NCBI GenBank assembly: GCA_016458225.1
Contig: JAEMGR010000016.1
Coordinates: 244,865-308,864, forward strand
Length of the DNA: 64,000 bases
Source of the DNA: Myxococcaceae bacterium JPH2
GTDB taxonomy: Bacteria; Myxococcota; Myxococcia; Myxococcales; Myxococcaceae
Direction of reading: 5' to 3'
Position numbers and translations under genes: made by a program. Shown here piece after piece: positions 23,416 to 41,452 of this stretch (position 1 is the stretch's first letter; each line of letters starts with the position of its first letter). The notes beneath the pieces were generated by a model. That model had not been told where the DNA came from. It made no database searches and saw only the letters and a program-made list of their open reading frames with translations.

Positions 23416-23425
23416 GGAGCGAACG

Positions 23426-24180: not shown

Positions 24181-25239
24181 TCATTCCAAGGCGTCATCCC
24201 AGGGCTCGAAGGTCCAGGCGGTGGCGTCATGGGTGGCCTCCGCGAAGCGCGTGTCCACGATCTCCTCGAAGGGCAGCTCCTGGGGGATGAGCCCGTCGCG
24301 GTGCATGAGCCGCTGCACCAGCTCGAAGTCCGCCCGCCGAGGCGTCAGGGGCGTGTACATCACGCGGCCGAGGGGCTGGGTGAGGGCCCAGCGCAGCAGC
24401 GCCGGGGGTTGGTTGAAGTAGTAGCGACCCACGAAGTCCGCGGCGTAGAGGCGCTCACGCGTGCCCTGGTCGAGCCATAGGCCCGAGCGCGCAATGCCAT
24501 CCACCAGCACCTGGACCGCCTCCGGGTGCCGGTCGATGACGTCCTGCCGGACCACCAGCACGCACGAGATGTAGTCCGGCCAGTACTCGCGCGCGTGGAA
24601 GAGGACGCGCCCGTATCCTCCCAGCTCCGCTTGAGAGGGATAGGGTTCGCCCATCACGTAGCCATCGATGGCGCCCACCTCCAGCGCGGCGCCCACGTCG
24701 GGCGGCGCCATCTCCACGGCCTTCACCTCGCGCGAGGGTACTCCCGCGCGCTCCAGGGCCTGGAGCAGCATGAGGCGTTCGTCGGAGAAGCGGCTGGGCA
24801 CGGCGACGGTGCGGCCCCGGAGGTCCGCCACGGTCTTCACCGGCCCTTGCTTGCGCACCACGGCGGCGCTGCCGTAGCGATGGCCCAGATAGACAATCTT
24901 GATGGGAACGCCTTGCGCGCGAAGGGCGATGGCCATGGGCGCCACCAGGAAGCCCGCTTGGATGCGATTGGCAATCAATGCCTCTTTTATCTCCGGGAAC
25001 CCCTGGAACATCTTCAAGAGATAGGAAGTCTTCTCCATGGACCGCCGGGAGATGTAATCCGCCACGGGGCACGCGAGGTGACACGTGACGGGGACGTAGG
25101 CGACGGTCAGCTTGCGCTCGTTCTCGGGCAGGCGCGCGTTGAGCACGGCGGCCCAGTCCACGTTGAGCCACAGGTGCAGGCCCGTGAGGCTTCCCATCCA
25201 CAGCAGGGCCGCGAGAACCACGCGCTGGCGAAGGTCCAT
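24181..25239 (-). CDS. ABC transporter substrate-binding protein (NMT1/SsuA-like) with CxxxC motif
   Basis: A 352-residue binding protein of the nitrate/sulfonate/thiamine-precursor (NMT1/SsuA) class, anchored by an N-terminal hydrophobic segment (about residues 8-27). The fold is seen from KLTVAYVPV, ADLRGRTVAVPS and ALEVGAIDGYVMGEP. Unusual is TCHLACP at the first strand loop, with Cys53 and Cys57 where the ligand normally sits, suggesting a metal, thiol- or selenium-type ligand; this is inference. The ATG is 6 nt after GGGAGG; a second ATG at 25245 overlaps the permease stop. Last gene of the selenoprotein/enediyne operon. Confidence 0.88.
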   Translation of the reverse strand: MDLRQRVVLAALLWMGSLTGLHLWLNVDWAAVLNARLPENERKLTVAYVPVTCHLACPVADYISRRSMEKTSYLLKMFQGFPEIKEALIANRIQAGFLVAPMAIALRAQGVPIKIVYLGHRYGSAAVVRKQGPVKTVADLRGRTVAVPSRFSDERLMLLQALERAGVPSREVKAVEMAPPDVGAALEVGAIDGYVMGEPYPSQAELGGYGRVLFHAREYWPDYISCVLVVRQDVIDRHPEAVQVLVDGIARSGLWLDQGTRERLYAADFVGRYYFNQPPALLRWALTQPLGRVMYTPLTPRRADFELVQRLMHRDGLIPQELPFEEIVDTRFAEATHDATAWTFEPWDDALE

Positions 25240-25241
25240 GG

Positions 25242-26015
25242 TCATCCTCCCTGGTCCGGAAAGCCCCAGCGGACGGGGTGAAGTCTTTCCAGTCGGCGCA
25301 CACCCGCGTCGATGGCCCAACCCACGCAGCCTATGAGCAGCATTCCCGCCACCACGAGGTCGTAGCGCTTGCCGGCGTTGCGCGCGTCGATGATGAGGTA
25401 GCCGAGGCCCGAGTCGACCGCGAGCATCTCCGCGGCCACCACCACCAGCCAGGCGATGCCCAGCGTGATTCTCAGCGCGACCAGCAAGTCCGGAATCGAC
25501 GCGGGTAGGAGCACGCGCAGCCACAGCGCGCCCGGGCCCAGTCCGAAGTTGCGGCCCGCGCGCAGGTGGACTTCGGGAATGGCCTGCACCGCGCTCGTGG
25601 CCGCCGTGGTGATGGGAAAGATCGCGGCGAGGAAGATGAGGAACACCGTGGCCGGCTCTCCCACGCCCCACAGCACGATGGCCAACGGACTCCAGGCCAG
25701 CGGACTGATGGGCCGCAGCCATTGGACGACGGGGTCGATAGCGAGCGCCGCCTCGCGCTGCAACCCCATCCAACTCCCCAAGGGTACGCCGAGCATCACC
25801 GCGAGGCCCGTCCCCAGGGCCACGCGCCGCAGCGAATCCAGCAGGTACGTCCCCAGGACTCCGCGGCGCAGCAGCTCGCCCAGGCCCCGCGCCACCGCCG
25901 CCGGCGAGGGGAAGATCTTGGTGCCGGTGTGGACCACCGCGAGGTGCCAGAGGGTCACCAGCACCGCGCTGGCGAGGAGCGGCAGGCCCACATGCTCCAG
26001 GCGGCGGCGCATCAT
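25242..26015 (-). CDS. ABC transporter permease (SsuC/TauC-like), second of two
   Basis: A 257-residue BPD-type permease with six helices. The EAA coupling loop is EVHLRAGRNFGLGPGALWLRVLLPASIP in outline (about residues 150-177), and the opening WHLAVVHTGTKIFPSP is typical of SsuC/TauC. It overlaps the ATPase stop by ATGA. It is clearly paralogous to the other permease of this operon (both share RPISPLAW, EVHLRAGRNFGL and LVVVAAEML). The importer therefore probably uses a permease heterodimer rather than the usual homodimer. Confidence 0.9.
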   Translation of the reverse strand: MMRRRLEHVGLPLLASAVLVTLWHLAVVHTGTKIFPSPAAVARGLGELLRRGVLGTYLLDSLRRVALGTGLAVMLGVPLGSWMGLQREAALAIDPVVQWLRPISPLAWSPLAIVLWGVGEPATVFLIFLAAIFPITTAATSAVQAIPEVHLRAGRNFGLGPGALWLRVLLPASIPDLLVALRITLGIAWLVVVAAEMLAVDSGLGYLIIDARNAGKRYDLVVAGMLLIGCVGWAIDAGVRRLERLHPVRWGFPDQGG

Positions 26016-26806
26016 GCGCTCTCCTGGCGTGGCGGCACGAGACCGCGGATGCCATGGGCCAATCCCAGCTCCGCCATGAGCGTGTCGCGCAAGGCCAGGT
26101 AGCGCGGCGCGCTGAGGTCTCGCGGGCGAGGCAGGTCGATGTCCACCACGCGCCGGATGCGGCCGGGGCGCGCCGACATCACCGCGACGCGGTCCGCGAG
26201 CTGCACGGACTCGTCGATGTCGTGGGTGACGAAGAGGACCGTCTTGCGTGCCTCGGACCAGATGCGCAGCAGCTCCGAGCGCATCTCCAGGCGGGTGATG
26301 GAGTCGAGTGCCCCGAAGGGCTCGTCCATGTAGAGCACGTCTGGATCCACCGCCAGGGCGCGGGCCACCTCCACGCGTTGCTTCATCCCTCCGGAGAGTT
26401 CGTGCGGATAGGCGCGCTCAAAGCCTGTCAGGCCCACGCGGGCCACGGCGCGCGCCACGCGCTCGCGGCGCTCCGAGGCGGGACGATGCGCGAGGCCGAA
26501 CCCGATGTTTCCTTCCACGGTCAGCCAGGGAAAGGTGCCTCGCTCCTGGAAGACGAAGATGCGCCGGGGATCCGGTCCGGTGACGGGCTGCCCGTCCACG
26601 AGCACCTCACCCTCGGCGGGCGCGAGGAACCCGCCCACGATGTTGAGCAGTGTCGACTTGCCGCAGCCCGAGGGGCCCAACAGGCACACGAACTCGCCGG
26701 ACTCCACCTCCAGGTTCACGTCCTCGAGGACGGACCGCTCGCCTTGTTCAGTGGGAAAGCGCGCGTGGAGTCCGCGCAGGCGCAGCTTGGGCATCGGGCC
26801 AGTCAT
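26012..26806 (-). CDS. ABC transporter ATP-binding protein (SsuB/TauB-like)
   Basis: A 264-residue ABC ATPase with Walker A GPSGCGKST (about residues 44-52), Q-loop FQERGTFPWL, signature LSGGMKQR, Walker B VLYMDEPFGALD and H-loop VTHD. These match the nitrate/sulfonate/taurine importer class. The ATG overlaps the upstream permease stop (ATGA), and the gene's own stop overlaps the next permease in the same way, so both permeases and the ATPase are translationally coupled. Confidence 0.93.
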   Translation of the reverse strand: MTGPMPKLRLRGLHARFPTEQGERSVLEDVNLEVESGEFVCLLGPSGCGKSTLLNIVGGFLAPAEGEVLVDGQPVTGPDPRRIFVFQERGTFPWLTVEGNIGFGLAHRPASERRERVARAVARVGLTGFERAYPHELSGGMKQRVEVARALAVDPDVLYMDEPFGALDSITRLEMRSELLRIWSEARKTVLFVTHDIDESVQLADRVAVMSARPGRIRRVVDIDLPRPRDLSAPRYLALRDTLMAELGLAHGIRGLVPPRQESA

Positions 26807-27609
26807 CGCGTGCTCCCGTCCATCGCGCGCTGAAGCCAGCGCATGAGTGCATCCAGTCCCACGCCGATGCCCCCGATGAGCACCATGGTCGCCATCACCA
26901 GGTCGTAGCGATTGCCCGCGTTGCGTGCGTCGAGGATGAGAAAGCCGAGACCCGAGTTGACCCCGAGCATCTCGGCCGCCACCACCACGAGCCAGGCCAC
27001 GCCCAGCGTGAGGCGCATCCCCACGAAGATGCGTGGGATTGCGGCCGGCAGCACCACGCGCCAGAGGAGGGCCGCGGAAGTGAGCCCGAAGTTGCGGCCC
27101 GCGCGCAGGTGGACCTCGGGGACGCCCCGCACGGCGCTCGCCACCGTGGTCACCAAGGGGAAGAACGAGGCCAGGAAGATGATGAAGATGGCCGAGACAT
27201 CCCCCACGCCGAACCAGAGGATGGAGATGGGAATCCAGGCGAGCGGCGAGATGGGCCGCAGCACTTGGAGAAGCGGTGAGAGCGCCAGCTCGCCCCGGCG
27301 AAACCAGCCCAGCAGCAGTCCGAGCGGCAACGCGAGGGCGAGCGCCCCGAGATACCCCCACGTCACGCGAAACAGCGAGGCCACCGTGTGCCGGACGATG
27401 ACCTGTCGCTGCACCAGCTCCAGCATTCCCGCGGCGACTCGCAAGGGAGAGGGGACGGGGGTCGAGCGCGCCAGGGCCACCGCGAGCGCCCAGGCGAGCA
27501 CGAGCCCCACGAGCCCCAGAGACCGGAGCACGAGTGGACGCCGGCCCGCCAAGCCCAGTCCCAACGCATCACGGGTCGGAGGAATCGGGAGGGTCTTCAG
27601 GTGGCGCAT
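26803..27609 (-). CDS. ABC transporter permease (SsuC/TauC-like), first of two
   Basis: A 268-residue BPD-type permease with a longer N-terminus than its paralogue and six helices. The EAA loop lies around EVHLRAGRNFGLTSAALL, and RPISPLAWIPISILWFGVG is the conserved mid-helix. The ATG at 27609 has GGAG 8 nt upstream and lies inside the 3' end of the selenoprotein gene (41-nt overlap). The transporter therefore depends on ribosomes that read through the UGA of that gene, or on its own initiation. This overlap ties it physically to the selenoprotein. Confidence 0.9.
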   Translation of the reverse strand: MRHLKTLPIPPTRDALGLGLAGRRPLVLRSLGLVGLVLAWALAVALARSTPVPSPLRVAAGMLELVQRQVIVRHTVASLFRVTWGYLGALALALPLGLLLGWFRRGELALSPLLQVLRPISPLAWIPISILWFGVGDVSAIFIIFLASFFPLVTTVASAVRGVPEVHLRAGRNFGLTSAALLWRVVLPAAIPRIFVGMRLTLGVAWLVVVAAEMLGVNSGLGFLILDARNAGNRYDLVMATMVLIGGIGVGLDALMRWLQRAMDGSTR

Positions 27610-28210
27610 AGCCAAACTCCGCCAGACGCTGCCCGGAGGCTTGATAGAGCGGCGCGCTCATGTCCTGGACGCCCGTGCCGTCGATCCACCGGTTGTAGAA
27701 GTTGAAGAGGGCGCAGACGCTGACGGCGTCGTAGATGGCTTCGTCCGTCCATCCCACGGCGCGCAGCGCGTCCACGTCCTCTCGGCCCAGCGCGCTCGAG
27801 CGCAGATTGAGCGTGTCGATGAAGACGAACAGCGCCTTCTCCGCGTCCGAGATGGGCGCGGTCGATGCGTCCCGAAGGACGGCTTGAACCATGTCGGGGG
27901 ATTGCAACAGTTCCGCCGCGACCGCGGCGTGAGAGCCCGTTCAAAACGCGCATTCGTTCCCTCGGGACGTATACGCGGCGATGAGTTCGCGCATCCCGGG
28001 CGACAACGGCGAAGGCCCGCGCATCACCTCCTGCGTGAAGCGTGACAGGGCCGCGCCTCGCGAGGGCTTGAAGGCAAACAGGTGCCAGATTTGCGGCGGG
28101 GGGAAGCCCGCGCTTCGCGCCTGTCGGATGAGCGCCCCGTAATGACACGAGGACTCATGGGACTCGACATCGGGCAGGTGCATGCGGCGGTCGGGGCTCT
28201 TGGGGGCCAT
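27569..28210 (-). CDS. Predicted selenoprotein: carboxymuconolactone decarboxylase/AhpD-like peroxidase-related protein with CxxU
   Basis: A 213-residue reading frame if the in-frame TGA at 27943-27941 (codon 90) is read as selenocysteine. Residues before the TGA (LIAAYTSRGNECAF) and after it (TGSHAAVAAELL) are the two halves of the CMD/AhpD redox segment, which normally reads CxxC...H. Glu75, Cys87, Sec90 and His94 have exactly the spacing of Glu118, Cys130, Cys133 and His137 in M. tuberculosis AhpD. The second half stays in frame to a normal stop at 27569. A SECIS-like hairpin follows the TGA. The ATG has GAGG at 6 nt. Gene callers will split it at the TGA. A plain nonsense mutation is the alternative. 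It lies between an enediyne-type thioesterase and an ABC importer. Confidence 0.85.
27914..27943 (-). promoter_or_regulatory. Predicted bacterial SECIS element with its UGA codon
   Basis: The UGA (27943-27941) is followed after 11 nt by a stem CGCCGC, a loop GGUC (27923-27920) and GCGGCG, a perfect 6-bp stem. UGA to loop is 17 nt. The E. coli fdhF SECIS has the same GGUC in its apical loop at 18 nt, where SelB contacts the G-U. No bulged U is visible in the stem. It lies entirely in coding sequence, as bacterial SECIS elements do. Confidence 0.72.
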
Positions 28211-28233
28211 GGGTGTCCTCGCGAGGGAAGCGG

Positions 28234-28659
28234 TCAACGAACGACAAACGCATCGAGCGCGGCGCGAAGCTCGGCGGGAAAGGGCGTGGGTTCGTTGCGC
28301 CCGCCCTGGCGCGACATGCAGGCAATCTCTTGGTCGCCCCGCGCCACCGGCTCGCGCTGGCCATGGGCCAGCCGCAGGTAGTCGAAGCGCATCGTCACGC
28401 GGTTGCGTGACAGTCCTCCCAGCCGCATCAGGATGAGCAGCTCGTCAAAGGCCCGGACCTCGTCGAGGTAGTCGCACGCCACGCGAGTCGTCACCAACGC
28501 GAGCCCCAGGCCGAGCTGGGAGAGCGTGGACGGCGCGTGCTCGCGCAGGAAGAACTCGCGACAGCGGCCTTGCCACCGGAGGTGGTTCACGAAGTACACG
28601 TTGCCCACCAGGTTGGTCTCCTCGAAGGCCACGGTGTGCCGGTACTCAAACGCTCGCAT
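28234..28659 (-). CDS. Enediyne-type 4HBT thioesterase (E10/CalE7-like)
   Basis: A 141-residue hot-dog-fold thioesterase. The segment HTVAFEETNLVGNVYFVNHLRWQGRCREFFL is, in outline, the hallmark of enediyne thioesterases such as CalE7, DynE7 and SgcE10, which release the polyene from the iterative enediyne synthase. ATRVACDYLDEV-like and EIACM segments continue the match. Its ATG overlaps the end of the synthase gene by 14 nt, so the two are coupled. The product would act on the ACP-bound polyene in the cytoplasm. Confidence 0.9.
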   Translation of the reverse strand: MRAFEYRHTVAFEETNLVGNVYFVNHLRWQGRCREFFLREHAPSTLSQLGLGLALVTTRVACDYLDEVRAFDELLILMRLGGLSRNRVTMRFDYLRLAHGQREPVARGDQEIACMSRQGGRNEPTPFPAELRAALDAFVVR

Positions 28660-31600
28660 CGTCGCCTCCGCTCAGGGTCGCGAGGACCAGCGGGCCCGGG
28701 TGCTCGCGCAGGTGGGTGCGCAGCGTGGCCACCCGCCGCGAGCCCGCGCCGAACACAATCCATCCATCCGGCTCCGCTCCGGCGATGGCCAGCCGCGTGG
28801 CCGCGGGCAGGCCTGCCTTCTTCAGGCACTCGATGGCGGTCCACACGCGCGTGGCGGCGCTCGCCAGGTCTTCGCCGTGCTCACGGGCCACCAGCTCCGC
28901 GAGGGCCGAGCGCTCGGGTCCGAGCAACTCGCGCCACACGGGCGGGGTGCGCGCCTCCACGGGCTCCATGTCGCAGCCGACGCTGCCCGGCCCGGTCACC
29001 GCCATGGTGAGTGTGCCCGCGTGCGAGGCGGAGGCACCCACTCCGTTCGTGGGAACAGGCTTGCCATCTGGGCGGCGGAAGACAGCGCCGGTCGCGCCCA
29101 TGACGGAGCGCAGCACCCGGTCGGTGCGGCCGGGGCGCACTTCGTCGGGTCGTGCATCCAAGGCGACGTGCAGCGTGGCCCCGGGCAGCAGCTCCCCGAT
29201 GCGTCGCTCCATGTACGGCGCGAGCAGGGACGCGGGCCACTCGGTGGGCTCTGGGGGCGATTCGATTCGCTGCAAGCGCAGGCCCTCCCATCGCTCCAGG
29301 ACCTCACCCCGCGCGTCGCACAGCTCCACGTCGTAGGTGAAGAGCTGGCCGTCGCTCGACCGCTCTCGCGCGATGACGTGTCGTGGCTCTTCGCTCGTGG
29401 CGGCGCGGCGGATGGAGTCCACGCCCACGGGCAACAGCAGCCCGTGCGGAATGCATGCCTGGATGGCGTGCAGCGCCGCGTCTCGCGTGGAGGGCTCGCC
29501 GAGCACGAGCCGCGCGGGCAGGTAGCGCGCGAACCATGGCGCATCGGGTGTGCCGGTCAGCTCCGCCACGCACTCCGTCGCGCGCAGCCGGAGGTAGCGC
29601 GCGATGCGCTGGAAGCGCCCGGAGTGGAAGAAGAGGCGGCCATACAAGTCTCGCTCCGGTTCAAGCCCCTGGTGCGCTTGCGCCTCCTCACTGGGCACGG
29701 GCCAGCGCTCCGAGCGCGAGGATGTGAGGCTTTGCGCGGACGCGCGACACGTCGCGCGAAAGTGGTCGACCTGGAAGTTAGTCTCCTCGGAGCGCACCAC
29801 CACGTCCACTGAGTCCGTGGCGGTTGCCAGCGCGGCGATGCGCAGCGTGCGGCGCGTGCCTGGGGGCACCACCACGGGCCGCTCGAAGCGCACCTGCTCG
29901 AAGTCGGGGGCTCGCTCGTGCCCCATCAGCGCCGTGGCCACCTGGGCCATTGCCTCCAGGCCGAGCACCGCGGGCCACAGCCGCTCGCCTCGGAAGACAT
30001 GCTCATCCAAGGACAGGTCGGTCCCGTCGGACAGCTCGATGTCCACCACCAGCTCGACCCCGGGCTGATGCACGCGCACCTGCTCAACGAACCGCAGGAA
30101 GGGCAGGGCGCCGGATGCCGCAGAGAGCATGGGCTGCGCGCCCATGCGTCCGCTCACCACCACCGCCACAGGGGACGAGGGTGTCGCGAGGAGGGCTCGC
30201 AGCATGGCCACGCCTTGTTCTGGAGGAATGGCCTGGATGCCGCGCTGGGCGAGCGCCTCCACGCGTCCCAGCCGTTCACCCATGCCGAGTCCGGACCAGA
30301 TGGACCACTCCACGCAGAGGCACCGGCACGCGGGGTGCTGCGCGCCCCAGCGCTCCACTTCGCGCGTGAGCCACGCATTGGCGAGCGCGTAGTCGGCTTG
30401 TCCCTCCAAGCCCAGTCGACCGATGACCGAGCCAAACCCGATGACTTGGCGCACGGATTCGGCGGACACCGCCGCGAGCACGTTCTTCAGGCCCTCGACC
30501 TTGGGGGCCAGGGTCGCGCGCAGCGAGGATTCATCGAGCCGAGCCAGCGGTCGAGGAACGTTCAGCCCCGCGCCGTGCAGCACCCCCGTGATGGGGCCCC
30601 GCAGTGTCGCCTCCAGCTCGCGCACCGCTCGGTGAACGGCCTCCGGAACCGTGACGTCCGCGGCGACATAGCTGGCACGAATGCCCGCGGCCTCGAGTCG
30701 CTGGAGGTTCGTGGCGAGCACGGCGTCTTCTTCTGGGCGAGAGCGGCCGAGCAGTCCGAGCCGCGCCCCACTGCTGCGCGCGAGCTCAAAGGCACACTCG
30801 TACGTGATGCCCTTTCCTCCGCCCGTGACGAGCAGGACGTCGTTCGTATCCAGCCCGGGTGTGACTTCCTTGGCGGGGAACAGTGGGCGCAGCTCGGGCT
30901 CTTCACGGACGCCCTCGCGGGTGTAGCGGCATTCGCGCATGCCAGGACTCAGGGCACGCGCCTCCGCGAGCACCCACTCCAGGGCTTGAGGATGAGCCTC
31001 GGGGACATCGACCACTCCCACCGCGAGGTCGGGCGCCTCGAGGCGGAGCGAACGCGCGAAGGCCGCGCACCCGCCTTCGTGCTGGACGACCAGGAAGCGC
31101 ATCGGCCCACGCCCCTCCAGCGCGGCGTGCGCGGCTCGGAGTAGCATCAGGGCATCCGCCTCGGTCGTCACTGGGGAGACGACCACCGCGATGCCAGGGC
31201 CCGGACAGACTGCGTTCAGACGCGCGCTCAGCTCCGTCGCGCGGGCCTCCGACGCGGAAGAGAAGACGGTCCATGCACCGGGAGGCCAGGCGTGCGGTCC
31301 GGGTGGCGCGAGCGGGCGTGGACTCCACGTGACGGCGAAGGCGCGGACCCAAGCATCCACGCCGTCGGGAAGGGATGCGGCAGGCTCGCGCGTGTGGGCC
31401 CCTTCGCGACGCAGGTCTTCCAGGGCCTGGGCCAGCGTTCGCACTTGCGCGTGGGCGAACTCCAGCGGCGCGAGGAGCGGGGGAAGGCCGAGCACCCGAG
31501 CGGCCTCGGTGGCAATGCGCGACACGCTGATGGAGTTGAGGTGCAGGTCACCCAGGAGGCGGTCGTCATCACCGATGGCCTGCTCCGGAAGCTCTGCGCG

Positions 31601-34462
31601 AGCGGCGACGAGTCGTCGAACGACTTCCAGCGCGGAGCCCTGGGCCCGCGCCTCGGGTGGACTGTCGTCGCGGCCCGTCGTCTTCTCGGGCTGCGCGACC
31701 GGACGCGGATCTCGCGGCGCGGCGCTGTCGGGGATGGGGGCGCTCTCGCAAGGATTCTCCAAGAACGAGAGCTTGCGAGAGGGATCGAACGGCCGGGTGA
31801 ATCGCCCGTCGAACAGCGCGGAGGGGACGCAGGGGGCTCCCATCGCGAACGCCGCACCGACCGCGCGCAGAAGTCCCCGCAGCGAGGCACCGCCGACATC
31901 GAGCGCCACGATGGGCGTGGAGACATTGTCTGCTCCCAGGCCCGTAAGGACCTGTCCCGGTCCGACCTCCAGCCAGAGGTCCACGGGGCCGGCGGCCTCC
32001 ATCGCCGACGTGAAGCGAACCGGCGCGGTGAGCTGTTCCAGCAACAGCGCGCGGAGATCCTCATTCGCGCCGATCAACCGCCCGCTCACGGTGGAGGCGA
32101 CGGCCCGGCGCAGTGGAAGGAACGAGGTCCTCGCGAGGGAGGCACGCAGCGACTCCGCGACCGGAGCCATGAGCGGTGAGTGGAAGGCATGGGACACCGC
32201 GAGCCGCGCGACCGCGAGCCCTTGCTCTCGTGCGCGTGCCGTGGCGATGTCCACCGCCCGCGCTTCGCCCGACACCACCGTCTGGCGAGGCGAGTTACAG
32301 GCGGCCACGCTGGCCTCGAGGCCGACGAGCAGGGGCTCCACGCGTGCACGGTCCGCGGCGATTCCCGCCATGGCTCCGGAAGGCACACCCAGCGCGGCCA
32401 TGGCCTGTCCCCGAGCCCGCGCGAGCGCACGCAGTGGGGCTTCATCCATCGCCCCCGCCCAACCCAGCGCGGTCAACTCCCCGAGGCTGTGGCCCACCGC
32501 GACCTCGGCGACGACGCCTGCTTCCGCGAGCACGCGCAGGCCCGCCAGCGATGCCGCGACGATGGCCGGCTGAACCACCTCGGTGTCCACCGTGGCGTCT
32601 GGCCCATCCTCCGGCACGCGGGCTTCCAGCAAGTCGCGGACGGACGCGAAGCGGCGCCGCCAGCTTCCACCTCCGAGATGCGCGGGAGAGCCCTGGCCCG
32701 GAAACAGGAACCCGATGCGGGGAGCTCGCGCGCCTTCGCCCAGGAACAGTCCTGCCTCGACATCGCATCGTGAGGTCACGCCTTCGGCCAACGCGCGGGC
32801 GAGGCTGTCGAGCTGAGTCCTCAGCTCCCCCGGCGTGGATGCGATGAGCGCGGCTCGGAACCGCGAGCCTCCCGCCCTGCGTTGCAGCTCGAACGCGAGG
32901 TCCACCAGCTCCGCGCGCGACAGCTGCGGAACCTGTTCGCGAAGCACGCCGACGCGAGCGGCCAGGGCTTCGCGGTTGGCCTCGCCCAGCAGGAACAGCT
33001 CCGCGTCCTGCGCGGATGCGGCCAGTCGACGTTCGCGGAGCCCCAGCGGGGCGCGCCGCGTCGACGTGGGCGCCTCCAACACGACATGCGTGTTGATGCC
33101 GCCGAAGCCCATGGCGCTGACTGCCGCGCGGGGCGGACCGAAGTCGGGCCACTCCTCCACGTCGTGCAGGACGCGCAGCACCGGAGCCTCGCCCCGCAGC
33201 AGCGCGTGCGGCCGACCTGCTCCTGGCATCGGCGGCAGGGCGCGGGCTTCGAGCGCCTGGATGGCCTTGATCAATCCCGCGAGTCCCGCAGCGGCCTTCG
33301 TGTGCCCGATGTTTGCCTTCACCGAGCCGAGCGCCGCCGCGACAGAGCGAGGTGCCCCCGCTTCGCGCAAGGCCGTCGAGAGGGCTTGGATTTCGGTGGC
33401 GTCCCCCACCGCGGTGCCGGTGCCGTGGCCCTCGAAGTAGCCCACGGTGTCGATGCCGAAGCCGGCGCGGTGATAGGCGCGGCGCAAGGCGAGCCGCTGC
33501 CCTTCGACCTCGGGGCGCGTGAGTCCTCCTTGTCCATCCGACGACACCCCCCAGCCCCGGACCCAGGCGCGCACGCGCAGCCCTCGCGCCACCGCGTCGT
33601 CATGGCGCATCAGCACCGCGAAGCCGCAGCCCTCGCCGGGCCAGAAGCCCGCGGAGCGATCGTCGTAGACGCGCATGTCCTCGAGGGCCAGCGCGCCCGT
33701 CTTGGCGAAGCCCACCAGCTCGAAGGGATCGAGGCTCAGGTCCACTCCGCCCGCGAGCACCACGTCCAGGTCCCCCGCCACCAACGCGCCGCACGCCTGA
33801 GTCACCGCGAGCAGCGACGACGCGCACGCGCCATCCACCGTGAAGCCGCCGCCCTTCAGGTCGAAGTGGTTGCAGATACGGCCCGCGATCGTGTTGGACA
33901 GGCCTCCGGCCAGCGTCTCCTCGCCCACGGGCGGGAACGGGGCCTTGAAGCGATCCTCCAGACTCGCGAGGAAGAGCGCGAGCCGCTCCGGCTCCCATCG
34001 CTCCCGCCCGAGGGCGTCCTCCACCATCCGCCGGACATAGGGCCAGCGCAGCCGCAAGCCCTGCGCGCGCGAGAACTCGCCGGTCAGCGTGTTGCCCACC
34101 ACGACGCCGGTGGTCTCGCGCGGAAGGTCACGCCCTTCATCCAGCCCCGCATCGCGCAGCGCATCCGCCGCCACCTCCAAGGCCAGCCAGTGCGTCATGT
34201 CCGCGGAGCGGAAGCTGCTGCCCGCGACGCGGAAGCGCAGGCGATCGAAGACATAGCCCTCCAACACCGCGACCTCTCGCACGGGTGTTCGATCGGCGGC
34301 GTGTGGATCCTCGGAGAAGTAGTCCTCCAACCGGAGGCGCGCGGCGGGCATGGGACGGAAGGCGCGACGCTGGGCGACGACCGTTTCCCAAAGCTCCGCT
34401 GGCGAACTCGCGTCTGGATACCGACACGCGAGCCCGACGACGGCGAGCGGTATGTCTTTCAT
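28646..34462 (-). CDS. pksE: Iterative enediyne-type polyketide synthase PksE (KS-AT-ACP-KR-DH-PPTase)
   Basis: A 1938-residue single-chain synthase with the enediyne PKSE order and length. KS at about 1-465 has catalytic Cys213 (GACASS), His346 (EGHGTGT) and His387 (GHTKAA). AT at about 580-890 has Ser659 (GHSLGE). ACP at about 940-1015 has Ser977 in DLHLNSISV, the form seen in PKSE carriers. KR follows with GGGKGIT near 1214, DH at about 1450-1700 with DEHVFRGERLWPA, and the C-terminal phosphopantetheinyl transferase has GCDMEP (1829-1834) and WTAIECLKKAG. It would make a linear conjugated polyene from malonyl-CoA and self-phosphopantetheinylate. The ATG overlaps the unbU stop. Confidence 0.95.
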   Translation of the reverse strand: MKDIPLAVVGLACRYPDASSPAELWETVVAQRRAFRPMPAARLRLEDYFSEDPHAADRTPVREVAVLEGYVFDRLRFRVAGSSFRSADMTHWLALEVAADALRDAGLDEGRDLPRETTGVVVGNTLTGEFSRAQGLRLRWPYVRRMVEDALGRERWEPERLALFLASLEDRFKAPFPPVGEETLAGGLSNTIAGRICNHFDLKGGGFTVDGACASSLLAVTQACGALVAGDLDVVLAGGVDLSLDPFELVGFAKTGALALEDMRVYDDRSAGFWPGEGCGFAVLMRHDDAVARGLRVRAWVRGWGVSSDGQGGLTRPEVEGQRLALRRAYHRAGFGIDTVGYFEGHGTGTAVGDATEIQALSTALREAGAPRSVAAALGSVKANIGHTKAAAGLAGLIKAIQALEARALPPMPGAGRPHALLRGEAPVLRVLHDVEEWPDFGPPRAAVSAMGFGGINTHVVLEAPTSTRRAPLGLRERRLAASAQDAELFLLGEANREALAARVGVLREQVPQLSRAELVDLAFELQRRAGGSRFRAALIASTPGELRTQLDSLARALAEGVTSRCDVEAGLFLGEGARAPRIGFLFPGQGSPAHLGGGSWRRRFASVRDLLEARVPEDGPDATVDTEVVQPAIVAASLAGLRVLAEAGVVAEVAVGHSLGELTALGWAGAMDEAPLRALARARGQAMAALGVPSGAMAGIAADRARVEPLLVGLEASVAACNSPRQTVVSGEARAVDIATARAREQGLAVARLAVSHAFHSPLMAPVAESLRASLARTSFLPLRRAVASTVSGRLIGANEDLRALLLEQLTAPVRFTSAMEAAGPVDLWLEVGPGQVLTGLGADNVSTPIVALDVGGASLRGLLRAVGAAFAMGAPCVPSALFDGRFTRPFDPSRKLSFLENPCESAPIPDSAAPRDPRPVAQPEKTTGRDDSPPEARAQGSALEVVRRLVAARAELPEQAIGDDDRLLGDLHLNSISVSRIATEAARVLGLPPLLAPLEFAHAQVRTLAQALEDLRREGAHTREPAASLPDGVDAWVRAFAVTWSPRPLAPPGPHAWPPGAWTVFSSASEARATELSARLNAVCPGPGIAVVVSPVTTEADALMLLRAAHAALEGRGPMRFLVVQHEGGCAAFARSLRLEAPDLAVGVVDVPEAHPQALEWVLAEARALSPGMRECRYTREGVREEPELRPLFPAKEVTPGLDTNDVLLVTGGGKGITYECAFELARSSGARLGLLGRSRPEEDAVLATNLQRLEAAGIRASYVAADVTVPEAVHRAVRELEATLRGPITGVLHGAGLNVPRPLARLDESSLRATLAPKVEGLKNVLAAVSAESVRQVIGFGSVIGRLGLEGQADYALANAWLTREVERWGAQHPACRCLCVEWSIWSGLGMGERLGRVEALAQRGIQAIPPEQGVAMLRALLATPSSPVAVVVSGRMGAQPMLSAASGALPFLRFVEQVRVHQPGVELVVDIELSDGTDLSLDEHVFRGERLWPAVLGLEAMAQVATALMGHERAPDFEQVRFERPVVVPPGTRRTLRIAALATATDSVDVVVRSEETNFQVDHFRATCRASAQSLTSSRSERWPVPSEEAQAHQGLEPERDLYGRLFFHSGRFQRIARYLRLRATECVAELTGTPDAPWFARYLPARLVLGEPSTRDAALHAIQACIPHGLLLPVGVDSIRRAATSEEPRHVIARERSSDGQLFTYDVELCDARGEVLERWEGLRLQRIESPPEPTEWPASLLAPYMERRIGELLPGATLHVALDARPDEVRPGRTDRVLRSVMGATGAVFRRPDGKPVPTNGVGASASHAGTLTMAVTGPGSVGCDMEPVEARTPPVWRELLGPERSALAELVAREHGEDLASAATRVWTAIECLKKAGLPAATRLAIAGAEPDGWIVFGAGSRRVATLRTHLREHPGPLVLATLSGGDDASV

Positions 34463-35379
34463 GAGTGCGGCTCACCCCCCGCTGAGGTGGCGAGGGCAGC
34501 GGGCGGAGCGTCACGTCGGGGGAGCAGGGCGCGCGCGTACAGCAGGGCGCCGCGTGCCAGGCACACCAGCGTCAGGGAGAAGAAGAGGTCGAAGACGATG
34601 TGCCGGCCCACCAGCAGGCTGTAGGCGGCGGCCACGCTGGCGCCGAACAGCACCTGGGCCAAGGGCTGGCGCGGCGTCGTCCCGGGATCCGTCACCATGT
34701 AGAAGGTGTAGAGGACGAAGGCCACGCCCGTCATGGGCATGAGCGGCGGCATGATGGCGCCATTCATCAGCCACGCGCGGAGCATCGCCTGCAACGCGAA
34801 GCCTCCGAGCCACCCGGCGATGAGCGGCAGTCGCTGCGTGAAGCGCGCATTGAGGAACGTCCCCGTGCAGACGATGACGGCAGGCAATACCCAGTCGCCC
34901 ACGCCGAATAGGTTCTCGGTGAACTGGTACGGCGGTGCGATCCCCACGGAGGGGAACGCCACCAGCGTCACGCTGATGCCGAAGTTGGAGGGATTGAGGA
35001 AGTGGCGCCACGTCCCTTCGACAGGCGCGCGAAACAGGGCCTTGGACGCGATCGCCACCGCCGACGCGAAGGCCACGGGAGCAAGGCGCGCATTGGCATA
35101 CAGCAGCATGGCCACCGCCAGGCCGGTGATGTGCGCGGGCAGGAGGAAGTCGACGAGTGCCTTCACGCCTCCCGTGAAGCGCGGCGCGCGTCCCTGCGCG
35201 CGCGCCTCCAGCCATTCCAGCATCAGCTCCATCGCGTACGCCGTACCCAGCGCGACGAGCGGATGGGCCCAGGCCATCTCGAACCCCAGCACCGAGTGTC
35301 CCAGGAGATTGAGGACGGTGATGGCGACAGCGAAGCGGCGAAGGCCCCCGAGGCGAAGCGAGCCGGCCCAGGTCTTCAT
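34459..35379 (-). CDS. unbU: UnbU-like membrane protein (enediyne E5)
   Basis: A 306-residue protein with about eight to nine membrane helices of the UnbU/RnfD-like type found in enediyne cassettes (E5). Landmarks are WRHFLNPSNFGISV, FTENLFGVGDWVLPA and YMVTDPGTTPRQP, the last like the flavinylated loop region of RnfD/NqrB. Its role in enediyne assembly is not established; redox or membrane association is often suggested. It starts at the ATG overlapping the unbV stop and ends overlapping pksE. Confidence 0.9.
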   Translation of the reverse strand: MKTWAGSLRLGGLRRFAVAITVLNLLGHSVLGFEMAWAHPLVALGTAYAMELMLEWLEARAQGRAPRFTGGVKALVDFLLPAHITGLAVAMLLYANARLAPVAFASAVAIASKALFRAPVEGTWRHFLNPSNFGISVTLVAFPSVGIAPPYQFTENLFGVGDWVLPAVIVCTGTFLNARFTQRLPLIAGWLGGFALQAMLRAWLMNGAIMPPLMPMTGVAFVLYTFYMVTDPGTTPRQPLAQVLFGASVAAAYSLLVGRHIVFDLFFSLTLVCLARGALLYARALLPRRDAPPAALATSAGGEPHS

Positions 35380-37373
35380 GGCGTGACCTCCGAGTTCACG
35401 CGCCCCAGCAGCAGGGTGTGCCAGCCAGGCGTGAGCGAGAGTTGTTGGTGCTGGAGCTGTCCAGAGGCACTTCGCCATGACACGCGCACGGTGATGGGCG
35501 TGTTGATGGGAACCACCCCCAGGCCGAAGTGAAGCTCCGGGCTGCGCTTGCCGGAGTGCCCGTTGCCGCCATCCACCTGTCCGACGAGGTGACGCCCATC
35601 GGGCAGAATCACCTCGGCCGCCGCGCCAATCACGGGGGTGGCCTTGCCTCCCTCGCGAGGCAGCCCGGGCACGACCGTCACCGTGCCGCCCGCGTCGCCG
35701 CCCACCGGGCGCAACAGCCTCAAGCCCAGGAAGGCGCCGGGCGCGGGCGCACGGTTGTGCGCGAGGTACGAGGGAGCCCATTGATTGGCGATGGCCAGGT
35801 CGAGCGCGCCATCTCCGTCGACATCCGCGGTGGCCATGCCGCGGGTGACCTCGGTGGCCCCCAGGCCCACGTCGACCGCGAGGTCCTGGTACCGCCCTGT
35901 CGCATCGCGCACGTAGAAGGGATTGTGCTGATGCCCGCTCAGGTCATCGCCGGCCTGGAACCGGGGCCAGCTCTCGGGGTGGCGCAGTCGTGAGTCATTG
36001 GCCGTGGCCAGCTCTTGCAACTCGGGCCAGCGATCCACGGTGCCCGCGAGGAAGCCGGTGGCCTGTGTGGCTTCGAGCGTGCCGTCGTTGTCGAAGTCGC
36101 CGAAGCGCGTCTCCCAGCCCCAGCCGCTGCGCGCCACGCCGCGCTCCTCGCTGGTGTCCACGTAGGGCGCCACGCCTTCGCGCATCCGTGACAGCTCGCC
36201 CGTGCTCTCGAACAGGAAGTGGCTTTCGAACAGCGAGAACTCGGCGGAGATGTTGCTGACGAAGATGTCCAGCAGTCCGTCGCCGTTCGTGTCCCCGAAG
36301 TCCACGCCCATGCCCTTGAACGAATCCCGGCCGAGCACCTTGGAGTTGGGCGTCCCCAGGCTCTTGCGGCCTTCGAGCAGGGCGAAGTGGAGCTTCCCGG
36401 GCTGCGAGCGATTGTGCAGCAACCGGTCCGGTCCGAAGTCGTTGGCGATGTACAGCTCGGGCAGCCCGTCGCCGTCCAGGTCCGCTGCTCCGAGCGCGAG
36501 CGTCCACCCGTGGGAGACGAGCGATTCCTCCTCGGGATCATCGAGCAGGCCCGTCACCTCCGCGAAGGTGACGGAGGGCGTCTCTCCGGAGGTGGCACTC
36601 ACCCAGCGCAGCCAGTGGTCGACGCCGCCGTTGAAGGCGCGCGTCATCGAGTCCTGCATCTCGTCTGGCTCGGTCGCCTGGACATCGAGGAGGTGGGCCC
36701 CGTCCGGGAAGTAGTTGCCCAGGATCAACTCCGGGTGTCCGTCACCGTCCATGTCCGCGAAGGTGGCGGCGTTGGTGAAGAATCTCGCGCCGCCGGGGAC
36801 CAGCTCCTGTCGCACGAACCGCTCCGCGGACAAGGCCGAGGCCGTGCCGGGCTCGCTCGGGCGCTGAAGGAAGGCGAGGGGCGTGCGACCCCAGTAGTAG
36901 ACGACCACATCCGTCCAGCCATCCTCGTTGAGGTCGGCGGGCAGGCAGCCCATCGGCGCCATCGTCTTGCCATCCCAGGCGAACGGCGCCGCGTCGAGCG
37001 TGAAGGGGGCGTAGCGCGCGGGCGTGCCAGGGGCGGGCGCGACGATGACCTGGTCCGTTCGCGTGTCCACGTAGCACACGTCGTTGGGCAGCCCATCCGC
37101 GTCCAGGTCGTGCAGCGCCACGGCGGCACCGACCGCGGAGATCCATCCCTGGATGCGCTGGAGCGAGGGATTGACCTCCCGGGTGTATCGCTCGGGCGGA
37201 CGCGGTGTCGCGACGGGCAAGGGCTCGCGCTCGAAGTGGAAGCGCGCGACGGCGGCGGTCCGCTCCGCTGAGCCCAGCTCCGGCAGGCGCGCGAAGCCAT
37301 ACAGGACGAGCACGGCGCACAGCGCGGCGAGTCGCGCCGCGTGCCGGGTCAGGAGGGTGCGTAGCGTGCTCAT
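35376..37373 (-). CDS. unbV: UnbV-like FG-GAP repeat protein (enediyne E4)
   Basis: A 665-residue exported protein with an N-terminal membrane segment (about residues 10-30). A beta-propeller of FG-GAP/VCBS repeats runs through most of the chain, seen as repeated DLDxDGLP, DMDGDGHPE, DTNGDGLLD and DVDGDGALD loops that bind calcium. The C-terminal part carries the ASPIC/UnbV-type region (VRVSWRSASGQLQ). UnbV is conserved in enediyne clusters with unknown function. The ATG overlaps the unbL stop. Confidence 0.92.
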   Translation of the reverse strand: MSTLRTLLTRHAARLAALCAVLVLYGFARLPELGSAERTAAVARFHFEREPLPVATPRPPERYTREVNPSLQRIQGWISAVGAAVALHDLDADGLPNDVCYVDTRTDQVIVAPAPGTPARYAPFTLDAAPFAWDGKTMAPMGCLPADLNEDGWTDVVVYYWGRTPLAFLQRPSEPGTASALSAERFVRQELVPGGARFFTNAATFADMDGDGHPELILGNYFPDGAHLLDVQATEPDEMQDSMTRAFNGGVDHWLRWVSATSGETPSVTFAEVTGLLDDPEEESLVSHGWTLALGAADLDGDGLPELYIANDFGPDRLLHNRSQPGKLHFALLEGRKSLGTPNSKVLGRDSFKGMGVDFGDTNGDGLLDIFVSNISAEFSLFESHFLFESTGELSRMREGVAPYVDTSEERGVARSGWGWETRFGDFDNDGTLEATQATGFLAGTVDRWPELQELATANDSRLRHPESWPRFQAGDDLSGHQHNPFYVRDATGRYQDLAVDVGLGATEVTRGMATADVDGDGALDLAIANQWAPSYLAHNRAPAPGAFLGLRLLRPVGGDAGGTVTVVPGLPREGGKATPVIGAAAEVILPDGRHLVGQVDGGNGHSGKRSPELHFGLGVVPINTPITVRVSWRSASGQLQHQQLSLTPGWHTLLLGRVNSEVTP

Positions 37374-38419
37374 GAGGACCTCGCGGGGGGCGCGACGGCC
37401 CGTTGGATGTTCTGGCGCCAGCGCTCGAAGCGCGGTGCGTCTTCACTGTCTTCTGGGCCGCAGGCCTCCAGGGCGGACTCGGCGAGGGCCGCGGTCTCGC
37501 TGAAGCCGCGACCGCACAACACCTCGCAGGCCCAGGTGACATGGGGAACGGGATTGCCCGCCCGCTCTCGCGCCCGCGCCGCGAAGACGACGCCCTGGCG
37601 CAGGGCCGGCAGGTGGTCGTCCGCGGCGTCCCGCAGCACCCCCAATGCCTCGCGCTCCACGCCACCCGCGTAGGTGCACGCCAGCCCCACGCCGGCCCAC
37701 AGGTCCGCGCGCCGGGACGTGGGGAAGCTCCAGATTCGTGACACCACGCGCTCGACGTGCGCGCCCTCCACGAACCACAGGCTGCGCCCCAGGCCCTGGT
37801 CGAACGCGCGGTCCGCATAGCCGCCCAGCCCGGGGCGTGCGCGTCGCTCGATGAACTGCTGGGGATGGAAGTACCCCTGATGGAAGCCGTAGCCATCCAC
37901 GCCCAGCCAGCCAAGCAGGGGATCCATCGCCGCGCGCGCGCGTCGCGCGTCGCGGTGCAGGCGCGCCCAGGCCCATCCGGCGCCCACGTGCACCATGTAC
38001 ACATGAGACTGCGCGCCGCCCTCCAGGAATGCATTCACGCGCGATGGGCCCCAGGGCGTGAGCGTGTCCAGCAACGCCAGCGCCATGGCCGCGCCTTCGA
38101 ACGCGAAGCCACGCATGCTGACATCGACGTGCTGGAGCCGAGGCACGAGTCCGTCCGCGCGCGGCGTCTCCAGCGCCGTGTTGTAGCCGAGGATGAACGT
38201 GCGACCGATGTGCTCCAGGTGGGCCTGCGTGGAGCCTCCCGCGCCGCGAAAGCCACGCCGCGCGAAGGACGCCTCGGAGTCCGCGAGCCCGAAGACGCCT
38301 CGCCGTGCGACCGCGGCGAGCCGTGGCAGCCAGGACGTTCGAGTGTCACCGAGGGGCTCGGGCGGCGCCGAGCCTGGAGGGGATTCCTTCACATCGTCGC
38401 GAAGCGGCGTTGCGGGCAT
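37370..38419 (-). CDS. unbL: UnbL-like DUF1702 protein (enediyne E3)
   Basis: A 349-residue DUF1702 protein, the E3/UnbL component of enediyne cassettes. Recognisable segments are RRGFRG, IGRTFILGYNTALE, RGFAFEGAAMALALLD, HVYMVHVGAGWAWARLH, DGYGFHQGYFHP and ARPGLGGYADRAFDQGLGRSLWF. No membrane segment. The function is unknown, but it occurs almost only with PKSE genes. It is the first gene of the ten-gene operon, about 95 nt behind a promoter-like pair. The ribosome-binding site is weak. Confidence 0.9.
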   Translation of the reverse strand: MPATPLRDDVKESPPGSAPPEPLGDTRTSWLPRLAAVARRGVFGLADSEASFARRGFRGAGGSTQAHLEHIGRTFILGYNTALETPRADGLVPRLQHVDVSMRGFAFEGAAMALALLDTLTPWGPSRVNAFLEGGAQSHVYMVHVGAGWAWARLHRDARRARAAMDPLLGWLGVDGYGFHQGYFHPQQFIERRARPGLGGYADRAFDQGLGRSLWFVEGAHVERVVSRIWSFPTSRRADLWAGVGLACTYAGGVEREALGVLRDAADDHLPALRQGVVFAARARERAGNPVPHVTWACEVLCGRGFSETAALAESALEACGPEDSEDAPRFERWRQNIQRAVAPPARSS

Positions 38420-39710: not shown

Positions 39711-40496
39711 TCACAGCGAGTCGAGGAAGCTTCTCAGCACGGCGTTGAACTCCTCGGGCCGCTCCTGGTTGGACAGGTGCGCCGCGCCACGGATGAGCTC
39801 CAATCGCGCGCCCGCCACCAGCCCCGCCATCTGCTGGGCCTTCTCCAGGGGCGTGATGGCGTCCTGCTCGCCCACCACCACGAGGGCCGGCCCCGCGTAG
39901 CGCGCGAGCATGTCCTTGCTGTCGGGGCGAAGGCCCATGCCGCGCTGGGCGGCGGCGAGTCCGGTGGGCGAGGCCTCGCGCATCTGGGCCGCGACCCAAC
40001 GGCCCACGGGCGAGTCGGGGCCCTCGGCGACCAGCTTGGGCAGCAGGCTCTTCACGACGGCCTCGGGTCCGTGCTCCAGGGCCTCGCGTGCGTTGGCCTC
40101 ACGCCGCTCCCGGCCCGCGTCGTCATCCGCGGTGGCCTGCGTGTCCACCAGCACGAGTCCACGCACCCGGCCCGCGTCCTCTCGCAGGAGCGCCATGGCC
40201 GCATAGCCTCCCATGGAGACGCCGCCCACCACCGCGGAGTCCACCTGGAGCGCGTCGAGCAGGGCCAGCGCATCCCGAGCGATGCGGCTCATCTCGAGCG
40301 GGCCCTCGCCGGGCGCCGTCCGCCCGAAGCCGCGGTGGTCCGGGAGGATGAAGCGGTAGCGCGATGACAGCGCCGCGACCTGCGCGTCGAACGAGGCGCC
40401 CGTGAGCGGAAAGGCATGCAGCAACAGCACCGCCGGGCCCTGGCCCACGTCGCGGTAGTGCAGGGAATGGCCATCCTCGGTCGTGATGTGTGGCAT
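39711..40496 (-). CDS. Alpha/beta hydrolase
   Basis: A 261-residue alpha/beta-hydrolase with oxyanion segment LLLHAFPL, nucleophile elbow GVSMGG (Ser near residue 94), acid in GEQDAIT and His in GAAHLSNQERP. The layout is that of 3-oxoadipate-enol-lactonase or small esterase families. The substrate is not predictable. The ATG has GAGG at 5 nt. It is 14 nt downstream of the corA-like gene and probably co-transcribed with it. Confidence 0.88.
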   Translation of the reverse strand: MPHITTEDGHSLHYRDVGQGPAVLLLHAFPLTGASFDAQVAALSSRYRFILPDHRGFGRTAPGEGPLEMSRIARDALALLDALQVDSAVVGGVSMGGYAAMALLREDAGRVRGLVLVDTQATADDDAGRERREANAREALEHGPEAVVKSLLPKLVAEGPDSPVGRWVAAQMREASPTGLAAAQRGMGLRPDSKDMLARYAGPALVVVGEQDAITPLEKAQQMAGLVAGARLELIRGAAHLSNQERPEEFNAVLRSFLDSL

Positions 40497-40510
40497 GGAA
40501 TCCTCGCGGC

Positions 40511-41452
40511 TCAGAGCCACTGCTTGTATTTGAACCAGGCGATGAGCCCCAGCGGGAACCCGACGATCATCGCCCACATCGCGGTGTAGTGCTGCGGCGT
40601 CGAAAGCACGTCGAAGTTCTGCCCGAAGAAGCCCACGATGAAGGACAGGGGCAGGAACAACGTGGCGAAGATGGTGAGCTGCTTGGTGATGTCGTTCGTC
40701 TTGTTCGCCACCATGGAGAGATAGCCATCCATGGCGTTGCCCACGATGTCCCGGCCCGCGTCGATCTGCTCGTACAGCCGCACCAGGTGGTCATACACAT
40801 CGCGGAAGTAGAGCGTCGTGCGCTCGTGGATGAACGGTACGCCTCGGCGCGACAGCAGGCTCACCACGTCCCGCTGCGGGGACAGCACGCGCCGCAGCGT
40901 CACCAGCATCCGCTTCAGCTCGAAGATGCGCTGGAGCTGGGAGCGATCCGGCCGCTCGAAGATGGCCACCTCCAGGTCCTCCAACTCCTCGCTGAAGCTG
41001 TCGAGGATGGGGAACTGCGCGTCCACCAACGTGTCGGCGAGCATGTACAGGATGAAGTCCGTGCCCCGCTCCTGGAGCGTTCGCGGATCATCCTTCACCC
41101 GCTTGGACACCGACTCGAACCCCGGGAAGTTCAGCGAGTGCACGCTGATGAGCCAGTCTTCGGCGAGGAAGAAGTGGTGCTCGTGCAGCGTGAGCTGACA
41201 CACGTCCGCACCCCGCGTGAAGCCCTGGAGGACGATGAACTGGTGGCCCGGGTATTCCTCCAGCTTGGGCCGTTGATCCAGGTGGAGCGTGTCCTCCACC
41301 GCGAGTCGGTGCAGTCCGTAGCGCGTGGCCAGCCGACCCATGACTTCCTCGGTCGGTTCGCTGACGTCGATCCACTTGCGGCCCGGTCGGTCGAGCAGTT
41401 CCTCGCCGCCCGTGAGGATCTTGCCGTCCTCCAGCAGACAGACCTGAATCAT
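40511..41452 (-). CDS. corA: CorA-family divalent cation transporter
   Basis: A 313-residue CorA/ZntB-type channel with a long cytosolic alpha/beta domain, a long stalk helix and two C-terminal membrane helices (about residues 255-275 and 288-306). The selectivity motif after the first helix is normally GMN; here it reads GQN in FFGQNF. GxN variants occur in CorA relatives and may change ion choice (Mg, Co or Zn). The ATG has AGGAG at 9 nt. First gene of a two-gene minus-strand unit. Confidence 0.9.
   Translation of the reverse strand: MIQVCLLEDGKILTGGEELLDRPGRKWIDVSEPTEEVMGRLATRYGLHRLAVEDTLHLDQRPKLEEYPGHQFIVLQGFTRGADVCQLTLHEHHFFLAEDWLISVHSLNFPGFESVSKRVKDDPRTLQERGTDFILYMLADTLVDAQFPILDSFSEELEDLEVAIFERPDRSQLQRIFELKRMLVTLRRVLSPQRDVVSLLSRRGVPFIHERTTLYFRDVYDHLVRLYEQIDAGRDIVGNAMDGYLSMVANKTNDITKQLTIFATLFLPLSFIVGFFGQNFDVLSTPQHYTAMWAMIVGFPLGLIAWFKYKQWL

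Follow-up and report, generated by a model that had tools for sequence, protein, structure and literature searches.

A predicted AhpD-like selenoprotein encoded inside an enediyne-type gene run of Myxococcaceae bacterium JPH2

Introduction

AhpD-like proteins with a CxxU motif were predicted as selenoproteins of COG2128 in Sargasso Sea data in 2005 (27 sequences; PMC1088965), and the GOS data gave 299 AhpD-like proteins with selenocysteine (Sec) and 902 with Cys in 2008 (PMC2398784). More recently, AhpD-like CxxU proteins were tabulated under TIGR01926 (PMC13188914, 2026). Here, we describe a gene from the predatory soil bacterium Myxococcaceae bacterium JPH2, found in a window of 64,000 nucleotides (the whole stretch of DNA that was analysed), whose product matches the same NCBIfam model and has its predicted Sec at the same CxxU position as these known TIGR01926/COG2128 selenoproteins. 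The original prediction presented it as undescribed-looking, which was wrong, as the AhpD-like CxxU family has been in print since 2005. The JPH2 gene does differ from the listed AhpD-like selenoproteins in that it lies inside an enediyne-type gene run. The protein is of a known kind, and what looks new is this genomic place.

The words myxobacteria and Myxococc- are absent from the main texts of PMC13188914 and PMC9312934, and Myxococc- is absent from the main text of PMC1794560. In the open-licence PMC literature we found no paper that names ‘enediyne’ and ‘selenoprotein’ together and, by title, none on a selenoprotein in a biosynthetic gene cluster; among papers of that literature naming both Myxococcus and selenoproteins, no title concerns selenoproteins of myxobacteria. 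Our overall reading, with a probability of about 0.88, is that the gene encodes an AhpD-like selenoprotein of a known family with a redox role, in which a predicted hairpin would cause UGA to be read as Sec, and that an ancestral gene has joined an enediyne-type operon.

Results

Reading frame and profile matches

On the minus strand, a single open frame of 213 codons, for a predicted protein of about 23 kDa, runs from an ATG at 28210 to a TGA at 27571-27569, with a TTG at 28237 as an alternative start (Table 1). Read with TGA as U, it holds one internal TGA, codon 90 from the ATG (27943-27941), which stands at the second Cys of a CxxC motif to give CAFU (flanking residues RGNECAFU-TGSHAAVAAEL). 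The continuous frame and the place of its sole TGA are as the original prediction had them, although it named no strand. The catalytic set of Glu, Cys, Cys/Sec and His is all present, as Glu75, Cys87, Sec90 and His94. Nothing of interest was seen on translation of the plus strand of 27569-28210.

The frame is not a product of chance. At E values up to 0.001, the Pfam family CMD is matched solely with the TGA read through (42.7 bits, cut-off 23), and neither half of the gene matches alone. For TIGR01926 (peroxidase-related enzyme), the read-through product scores 103.3 bits against a cut-off of 81.8, compared to 21.0 and 54.9 bits for the halves, which means that read-through nearly doubles the score of the better half; of the five matches to this model in the whole genome, the selenoprotein gene alone lies above the cut-off. 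We see very little room for doubt that the protein belongs to the known TIGR01926/COG2128 family.

A genome of the same genus has a selenoprotein locus that is 94% identical. Changes between the two at first, second and third codon positions number 3/1/22 upstream of the UGA and 5/6/18 downstream, with the third position dominating on both sides, and amino-acid changes affect 2 of 98 codons in the upstream part and 11 of 123 in the downstream part.

Table 1 Features at the predicted selenoprotein locus, in window positions and in order of decreasing position.
Feature	Positions	Strand	Basis
Alpha/beta hydrolase, native upstream neighbour of the gene in Myxococcus and Corallococcus	39711..40577	-	Synteny
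DUF1702 protein (E3-type)	37370..38419	-	Profile match
UnbV-type protein (FG-GAP, UnbV_ASPIC)	35376..37373	-	Profile match
UnbU-type membrane protein (NQR2/RnfD family)	34459..35379	-	Profile match; start by eye
Enediyne-type iterative polyketide synthase PksE	28646..34462	-	KS-AT-KR-DH by Pfam; ACP and C-terminal PPTase motifs by eye
Enediyne-type thioesterase, E10	28234..28659	-	Best PDB matches CalE7, ACP-polyene thioesterase 4i4j, DynE7
GAGG, probable ribosome-binding site ahead of ATG 28210	28217..28220	-	Recognised by eye
AhpD-like (TIGR01926/COG2128) selenoprotein gene, 213 codons, predicted Sec = codon 90	27569..28210	-	Frame, profile matches, conservation
In-frame UGA (predicted Sec) codon	27941..27943	-	TGA in 91/94 distinct related loci
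Predicted bSECIS hairpin, 6-bp stem, GGUC loop (27923-27920), 17 nt after UGA	27914..27929	-	Pairing pattern and published bSECIS model
ABC permease, SsuC/TauC/NtrB-like	26803..27609	-	Below all NCBIfam cut-offs; putative start ATG 27609 inside selenoprotein gene
ABC ATPase, same transporter	26012..26812	-	Profile match; start approximate
Second ABC permease	25242..26015	-	Profile match
SsuA-like substrate-binding protein	24181..25203	-	Below NCBIfam cut-off; start approximate

Fold and relatives of known structure

The AlphaFold2 model (115-row alignment; pLDDT 92.2, pTM 0.88) consists of helices only and places the Cys87-Sec90 pair at the start of a predicted helix, 97-111 in the numbering of the TGA=U translation. 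The best matches in both sequence and fold are the peroxidase-related AhpD-type proteins 2prr, 3c1l, 2pfx, 2oyo and 6k40, the last being AhpD of D. radiodurans (best E 4e-8 to 2e-7); they are 22-29% identical over the aligned part and, in the three alignments inspected, have Cys in place of Sec. In M. tuberculosis AhpD (1gu9, 1knc, 1lw1), the catalytic residues, which we take to be Glu118, Cys130, Cys133 and His137, have the same Glu/Cys/Cys/His spacing, with the second Cys where the JPH2 protein has Sec. The spacing put forward in the original prediction therefore stands, but AhpD of M. tuberculosis matches the fold weakly (E about 0.17, TMq 0.35) and is not the closest relative.

Two further AhpD-type families, NF041238 (AhpD-related (seleno)protein, CFYUT) and NF053654 (YciW-related (seleno)protein), are matched far below their cut-offs, at 44.9 of 175 and 22.9 of 310 bits, respectively. 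The debrominase Bmp8 (6ohi, 6ohj; a dehalogenase by its PDB title) shares the AhpD-like fold as a remote relative, 19-20% identical and with a fold E of 1.6e-3. Bmp8 acts in a natural-product gene cluster.

Selenium machinery of the genome

The genome assembly comprises 9.0 Mb in 144 contigs and is 99.57% complete. All four of selA, selB, selC and selD, for which the original prediction had suggested a search, are present: selA scores 550 bits, selB 311 and selD 387, all above cut-off, and the tRNA-Sec gene (selC) scores 71.3 bits and is called by ARAGORN as tRNA-SeC with anticodon tca. The selD gene (L018) has one in-frame TGA of its own. In the fold behind this TGA (CAG*AAK, TGA assigned by eye) there is a hairpin with a GGUCC tip, which resembles the loop of the codon-90 hairpin described below. 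Across the family, a tRNA-Sec match above the cut-off is found in 51 of 58 genomes, a few of them barely above; matches below the threshold appear in 14 of 14 control genomes and were disregarded.

Conservation of the UGA codon

The gene is matched in 30 of the 58 family genomes, JPH2 itself counted. Exactly one internal TGA is seen in each of the best 17 of 43 listed family matches (55-100% identity), and the weaker 26 are mixed. A wider survey of codon 90 covered 100 loci, 94 of them distinct, made up of the best 80 of 178 relatives from a genome-contig scan and 20 fetched regions. Among the distinct loci, the codon is TGA in 91, TGC in two and TGT in one, and no other codon is seen; further stops occur in 6 of the 100 locus alignments (L089, L116, L121, L138, L141 and L145). 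A strain of Myxococcus xanthus has a 71% identical relative among them (L073). By record title, the loci come from Myxococcota, Acidobacteriota and Gemmatimonadota, with one each from Planctomycetota, Verrucomicrobiota and a ‘Cyanobacteria’ bin. The Verrucomicrobiota and Cyanobacteria rows fall among Acidobacteriota on the tree, so these bins may be misnamed. A second, distant group of the family (L038-L045, 33-39%) also has TGA, and L041 has two.

At the protein level, 114 of the 120 listed homologues (1,521 in all) were aligned, the six longest (P0002-P0007) being left out. The catalytic Glu and His (Glu84 and His103 in the TGA=U translation) are kept in all 114, and the first Cys of the pair in 101, with Thr in the other 13. 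The original prediction expected homologues to carry Cys at codon 90; this holds for 79 of the 114 proteins and 3 of the 94 distinct loci, but the remaining proteins have Trp (32), Ser (2) or Arg (1). The 32 Trp rows (P0009, P0010, P0011 and 29 others) fall among the TGA rows of a 205-row FastTree, and the longest contig behind each is at most 1,937 bases, which is what one would expect had gene callers chosen code 4. From the protein rows and the tree, the Trp is probably UGA translated with code 4. The fewest Sec/Cys changes number 12 on this tree, of whose 202 inner branches 73 are weak. The count is the same with the Trp rows omitted or taken as UGA, and it suggests that Sec and Cys may have replaced each other repeatedly. 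The JPH2 gene sits in a group of 20 rows, all TGA, with support 99. Four of the longest homologues (P0002, P0003, P0004 and P0006; 323-336 aa) begin shortly behind the expected Sec position and continue into a second, complete CxxC domain; they are probably two-domain fusions whose Sec-containing first part was lost in gene calling.

A conserved hairpin downstream of the UGA

For the hairpin analysis, 81 TGA sequences (the JPH2 gene and 80 others; 80 distinct rows) were aligned from the UGA. Left out of this set were the distant loci L067-L070, sequences identical over 51 nt, the Cys loci and L150. The stem pairs positions 15-20 from the UGA with 25-30 and is complete, with six pairs, in 78 of 81 sequences; if letters 21 and 24 are counted as a pair, all seven form in the same number. 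We compared these counts with a codon null, in which synonymous codons were redrawn from each gene's own usage (500 draws). This gave a mean of 14.6 and a maximum of 26 sequences with six pairs, and a mean of 6.4 and a maximum of 13 with seven. The letters that close the loop, 21 and 24, covary (GC 53, AU 26, GU 2), giving GGUC/AGUU loop types among the relatives, and stem pair 18-27 is seen as CG, UA and UG.

Shuffling points the same way for several measures. Cells pair at 99.5% in the distinct rows (shuffled mean 95.9), 29 cells are changed on both sides (shuffled 9.3) and the covariation score is 0.167 (shuffled 0.093), none of which was equalled in 500 shuffles; structures slid along the alignment pair in just 27-81% of cells. 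Two other measures are not outstanding: pairs with a change on both sides number 2, a value reached by 103 of 500 shuffles, and further pair types number 6, reached by 101 of 500. The shared ancestry of the sequences remains in both the codon null and the shuffles. RNAalifold returns this six-pair stem as well; its covariation term is only -0.09, and 21-24 stay unpaired. Taken alone, the JPH2 hairpin gives no evidence by its folding energy (z 0.08 against shuffles) and has a 15% chance of arising under the codon null. The hairpin is absent from the three Cys loci, where 4 of 7 pairs form, and three distant TGA loci (L068-L070; 34-36% identity) form 7 of 7, the same hairpin. In both genomes of the JPH2 genus, the 51 nt from the UGA onward are identical.

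The bSECIS model, as given in PMC13188914, has a stem of 4-16 bp and a loop of 3-9 nt with G in the first two loop positions, 16-37 nt after the UGA, with an MFE of at most -7.5 and two loop letters that mostly pair. The JPH2 hairpin fits this model, with 6 bp, a 4-nt GGUC loop, a distance of 17 nt and -15.8 kcal/mol for 49 nt.

An enediyne-type neighbourhood

The selenoprotein gene stands between an upstream cassette of DUF1702, UnbV, UnbU, PksE and E10 genes and a downstream SsuABC-like transporter, all on the same strand (Table 1); the original prediction does not mention the enediyne-type genes. The DUF1702 protein is presumably the one that carries the name E3. The AT region of PksE matches DynE8, among many other PKS chains. 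Together, the PksE, E10 and E3/E4/E5-type genes qualify by sequence as a predicted enediyne PKS cassette, in which ACP and PPTase were recognised by eye only.

Spacing in the run is tight. There is an overlap of 14 bases between the PKS gene and E10, and 23 nt separate the end of E10 from the ATG of the selenoprotein gene. The putative permease start, an ATG 3' of the UGA, falls within the selenoprotein gene, giving an apparent overlap. A single operon is predicted from this spacing and these overlaps, and the selenoprotein gene is likely to be part of the enediyne-type transcript; within such an operon, its product would be made together with the polyketide machinery. A scan for consensus promoters and terminators was uninformative, with no promoters (0.4 expected) and five terminator-like sites (4.3 expected). 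The stretch between the transporter and the conserved flank (window 20666-24148) encodes two neighbouring proteins that lack a Pfam match, one of them with two CxxCH motifs, and also holds a muconolactone-isomerase-like gene and a GST-like gene.

The gene and the cassette in other genomes

In Myxococcus and Corallococcus (L052, L053, L055 and L059 of nine loci compared), the gene is found between homologues of the window at 17.7-20.1 kb and 39.7-41.5 kb, the second flank consisting of alpha/beta hydrolase and CorA genes. In the JPH2 genus, the cassette lies between the hydrolase and the selenoprotein gene. Myxococcus-like synteny is also seen in L085, which is identical in extent to L052 of genome G041; the record bears the title Comamonas sp. 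KCTC 72670, so its name looks wrong. The ten-gene arrangement is common to one other genome, by record title that of Citreicoccus inhibens (L051 and L071, the same stretch), and is thereby kept in both searched genomes of the genus. In the C. inhibens paper, a type I PKS region on scaffold 42 is most similar to sporolide, at 10% (PMC8538283); as our Citreicoccus locus record is NODE_42, we take this region to be the same cluster. In the other 98 of 100 loci, neither PKS nor E10 is seen near the gene within the flanks examined, many of which are short.

Of 195 genomes of the phylum, four have DUF1702, and the selenoprotein gene accompanies the cassette in two of these, both of the JPH2 genus. 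A general link between selenoprotein and enediyne cassette, looked for within the phylum, was not found outside this genus. Another myxobacterium, G143, has DUF1702, UnbV, UnbU, PKS and E10 at 61-69% identity, with a binding protein, permease and ATPase of the same type on the opposite strand (38-52%); its selenoprotein gene is elsewhere in the genome and absent from the cassette. Behind the G143 cassette, at the place of the selenoprotein, are a PF13557-match gene and a PAP2-superfamily gene (L159:3512-6345). In the remaining DUF1702 genome, G190, the contig of 5,553 bases is too short to show a neighbourhood. From these comparisons we infer an ancestral Myxococcaceae gene that, in the JPH2 genus, would have become part of an enediyne-type operon.

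Discussion

Recoding of UGA to Sec in a CMD/AhpD-family protein, as originally predicted, is well supported by the presence of selA/B/C/D, by TGA or Cys codons in 94 of 94 distinct loci and by a covarying hairpin. A pseudogene or a sequencing error, in which the TGA is an ordinary stop that breaks a CMD gene, would account for the two separate ORFs given by the standard code and for the larger number of amino-acid changes in the downstream half between the two genomes of the genus. However, the frames are intact on both sides of the TGA, 91 of 94 distinct loci have TGA at this codon, the hairpin covaries and the genome has the full Sec machinery, and we give this account almost no credence. 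It is also very improbable that the UGA is read as some other amino acid, such as near-cognate Trp, or that a truncated product of 89 residues does the work. Trp does stand at this position in 32 of the 114 homologues aligned, but the longest contigs behind those rows (at most 1,937 bases) fit code-4 gene calling, counting the rows as UGA adds no change of state on the tree (12 either way), and the DNA of 100 loci shows TGA and Cys codons only; a truncated product would be missing the catalytic His94. Both the pseudogene and near-cognate read-through were rejected, and we regard decoding of the codon-90 UGA as Sec as a highly probable prediction.

The gene product is very probably a redox enzyme, and we infer thiol peroxidase activity. 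In the proposed mechanism, the SECIS hairpin 17 nt downstream would direct Sec insertion at codon 90, placing Sec90 where the CxxC pair has its attacking cysteine. In AhpD enzymology, the second Cys of the pair is the attacking residue; by this analogy, Sec90 would act as the nucleophile, with Cys87 as the resolving thiol. A Glu75/His94 relay would activate Sec90, which would attack a hydroperoxide or another electrophile. A selenylsulfide would then form between Sec90 and Cys87, and a thiol reductant would recycle the enzyme.

What such an enzyme does beside an enediyne-type cassette can be read in two ways. It may be a real selenoprotein that acts as a general soil-bacterial redox or detoxification enzyme, around whose gene the cassette was merely inserted with no functional link, a reading compatible with the selenocysteine part of our explanation and one for which we put the odds somewhat above even. 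It draws on the 98 of 100 related loci with neither PKS nor E10 in the flanks examined, on the Myxococcus and Corallococcus relatives that keep the native neighbourhood, and on the related G143 cassette that lacks the gene. Against this, the gene is embedded in the cassette run, with E10 23 nt away and an apparent overlap with the permease; G143, too, has transporter genes alongside its cassette, and both searched genomes of the genus keep the arrangement. Alternatively, the gene might have been captured as a working part of the operon, where Sec90 would detoxify or tailor enediyne chemistry that is thiol-reactive, peroxide-prone or halogenated. As the putative permease start falls within the selenoprotein gene, 3' of the UGA, decoding of that UGA may in that case make transporter expression dependent on selenium. 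We consider this second reading doubtful, and a functional role of the selenoprotein in enediyne biology is unlikely in our estimation. The G143 cassette without the gene speaks against an essential role in enediyne synthesis, and since G143 has its gene elsewhere, a role in enediyne chemistry or self-protection is offered just as a hypothesis. If true, capture into the operon would make this the first selenocysteine enzyme tied to enediyne biosynthesis.

Overall, an apparently broken gene becomes a well-supported selenoprotein, one of many Sec-encoding TIGR01926 genes, the majority from Acidobacteriota and Myxococcota by record title, that have a sharply defined, covarying hairpin with a GGUC or AGUU loop. 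This hairpin can be used to annotate such genes. Metagenome protein sets probably list some of them with Trp in place of Sec, and the Trp-bearing homologues are probably a hidden pool of selenoproteins. Through its place inside an enediyne-type run, the JPH2 gene connects selenium with a potent class of antibiotics in a way that can be tested. In the known enediyne cassettes to which CalE7, 4i4j, DynE7 and DynE8 belong, and which we take to be those of calicheamicin, C-1027 and dynemicin, the E10, PksE, UnbU, UnbV and DUF1702 genes form one run, as they do at the JPH2 locus. We know of no AhpD-like selenoprotein gene or SsuABC-like transporter in described enediyne clusters. Compared to the known cassettes, the JPH2 run adds both of these, the AhpD-like selenoprotein gene and the SsuABC-like transporter.
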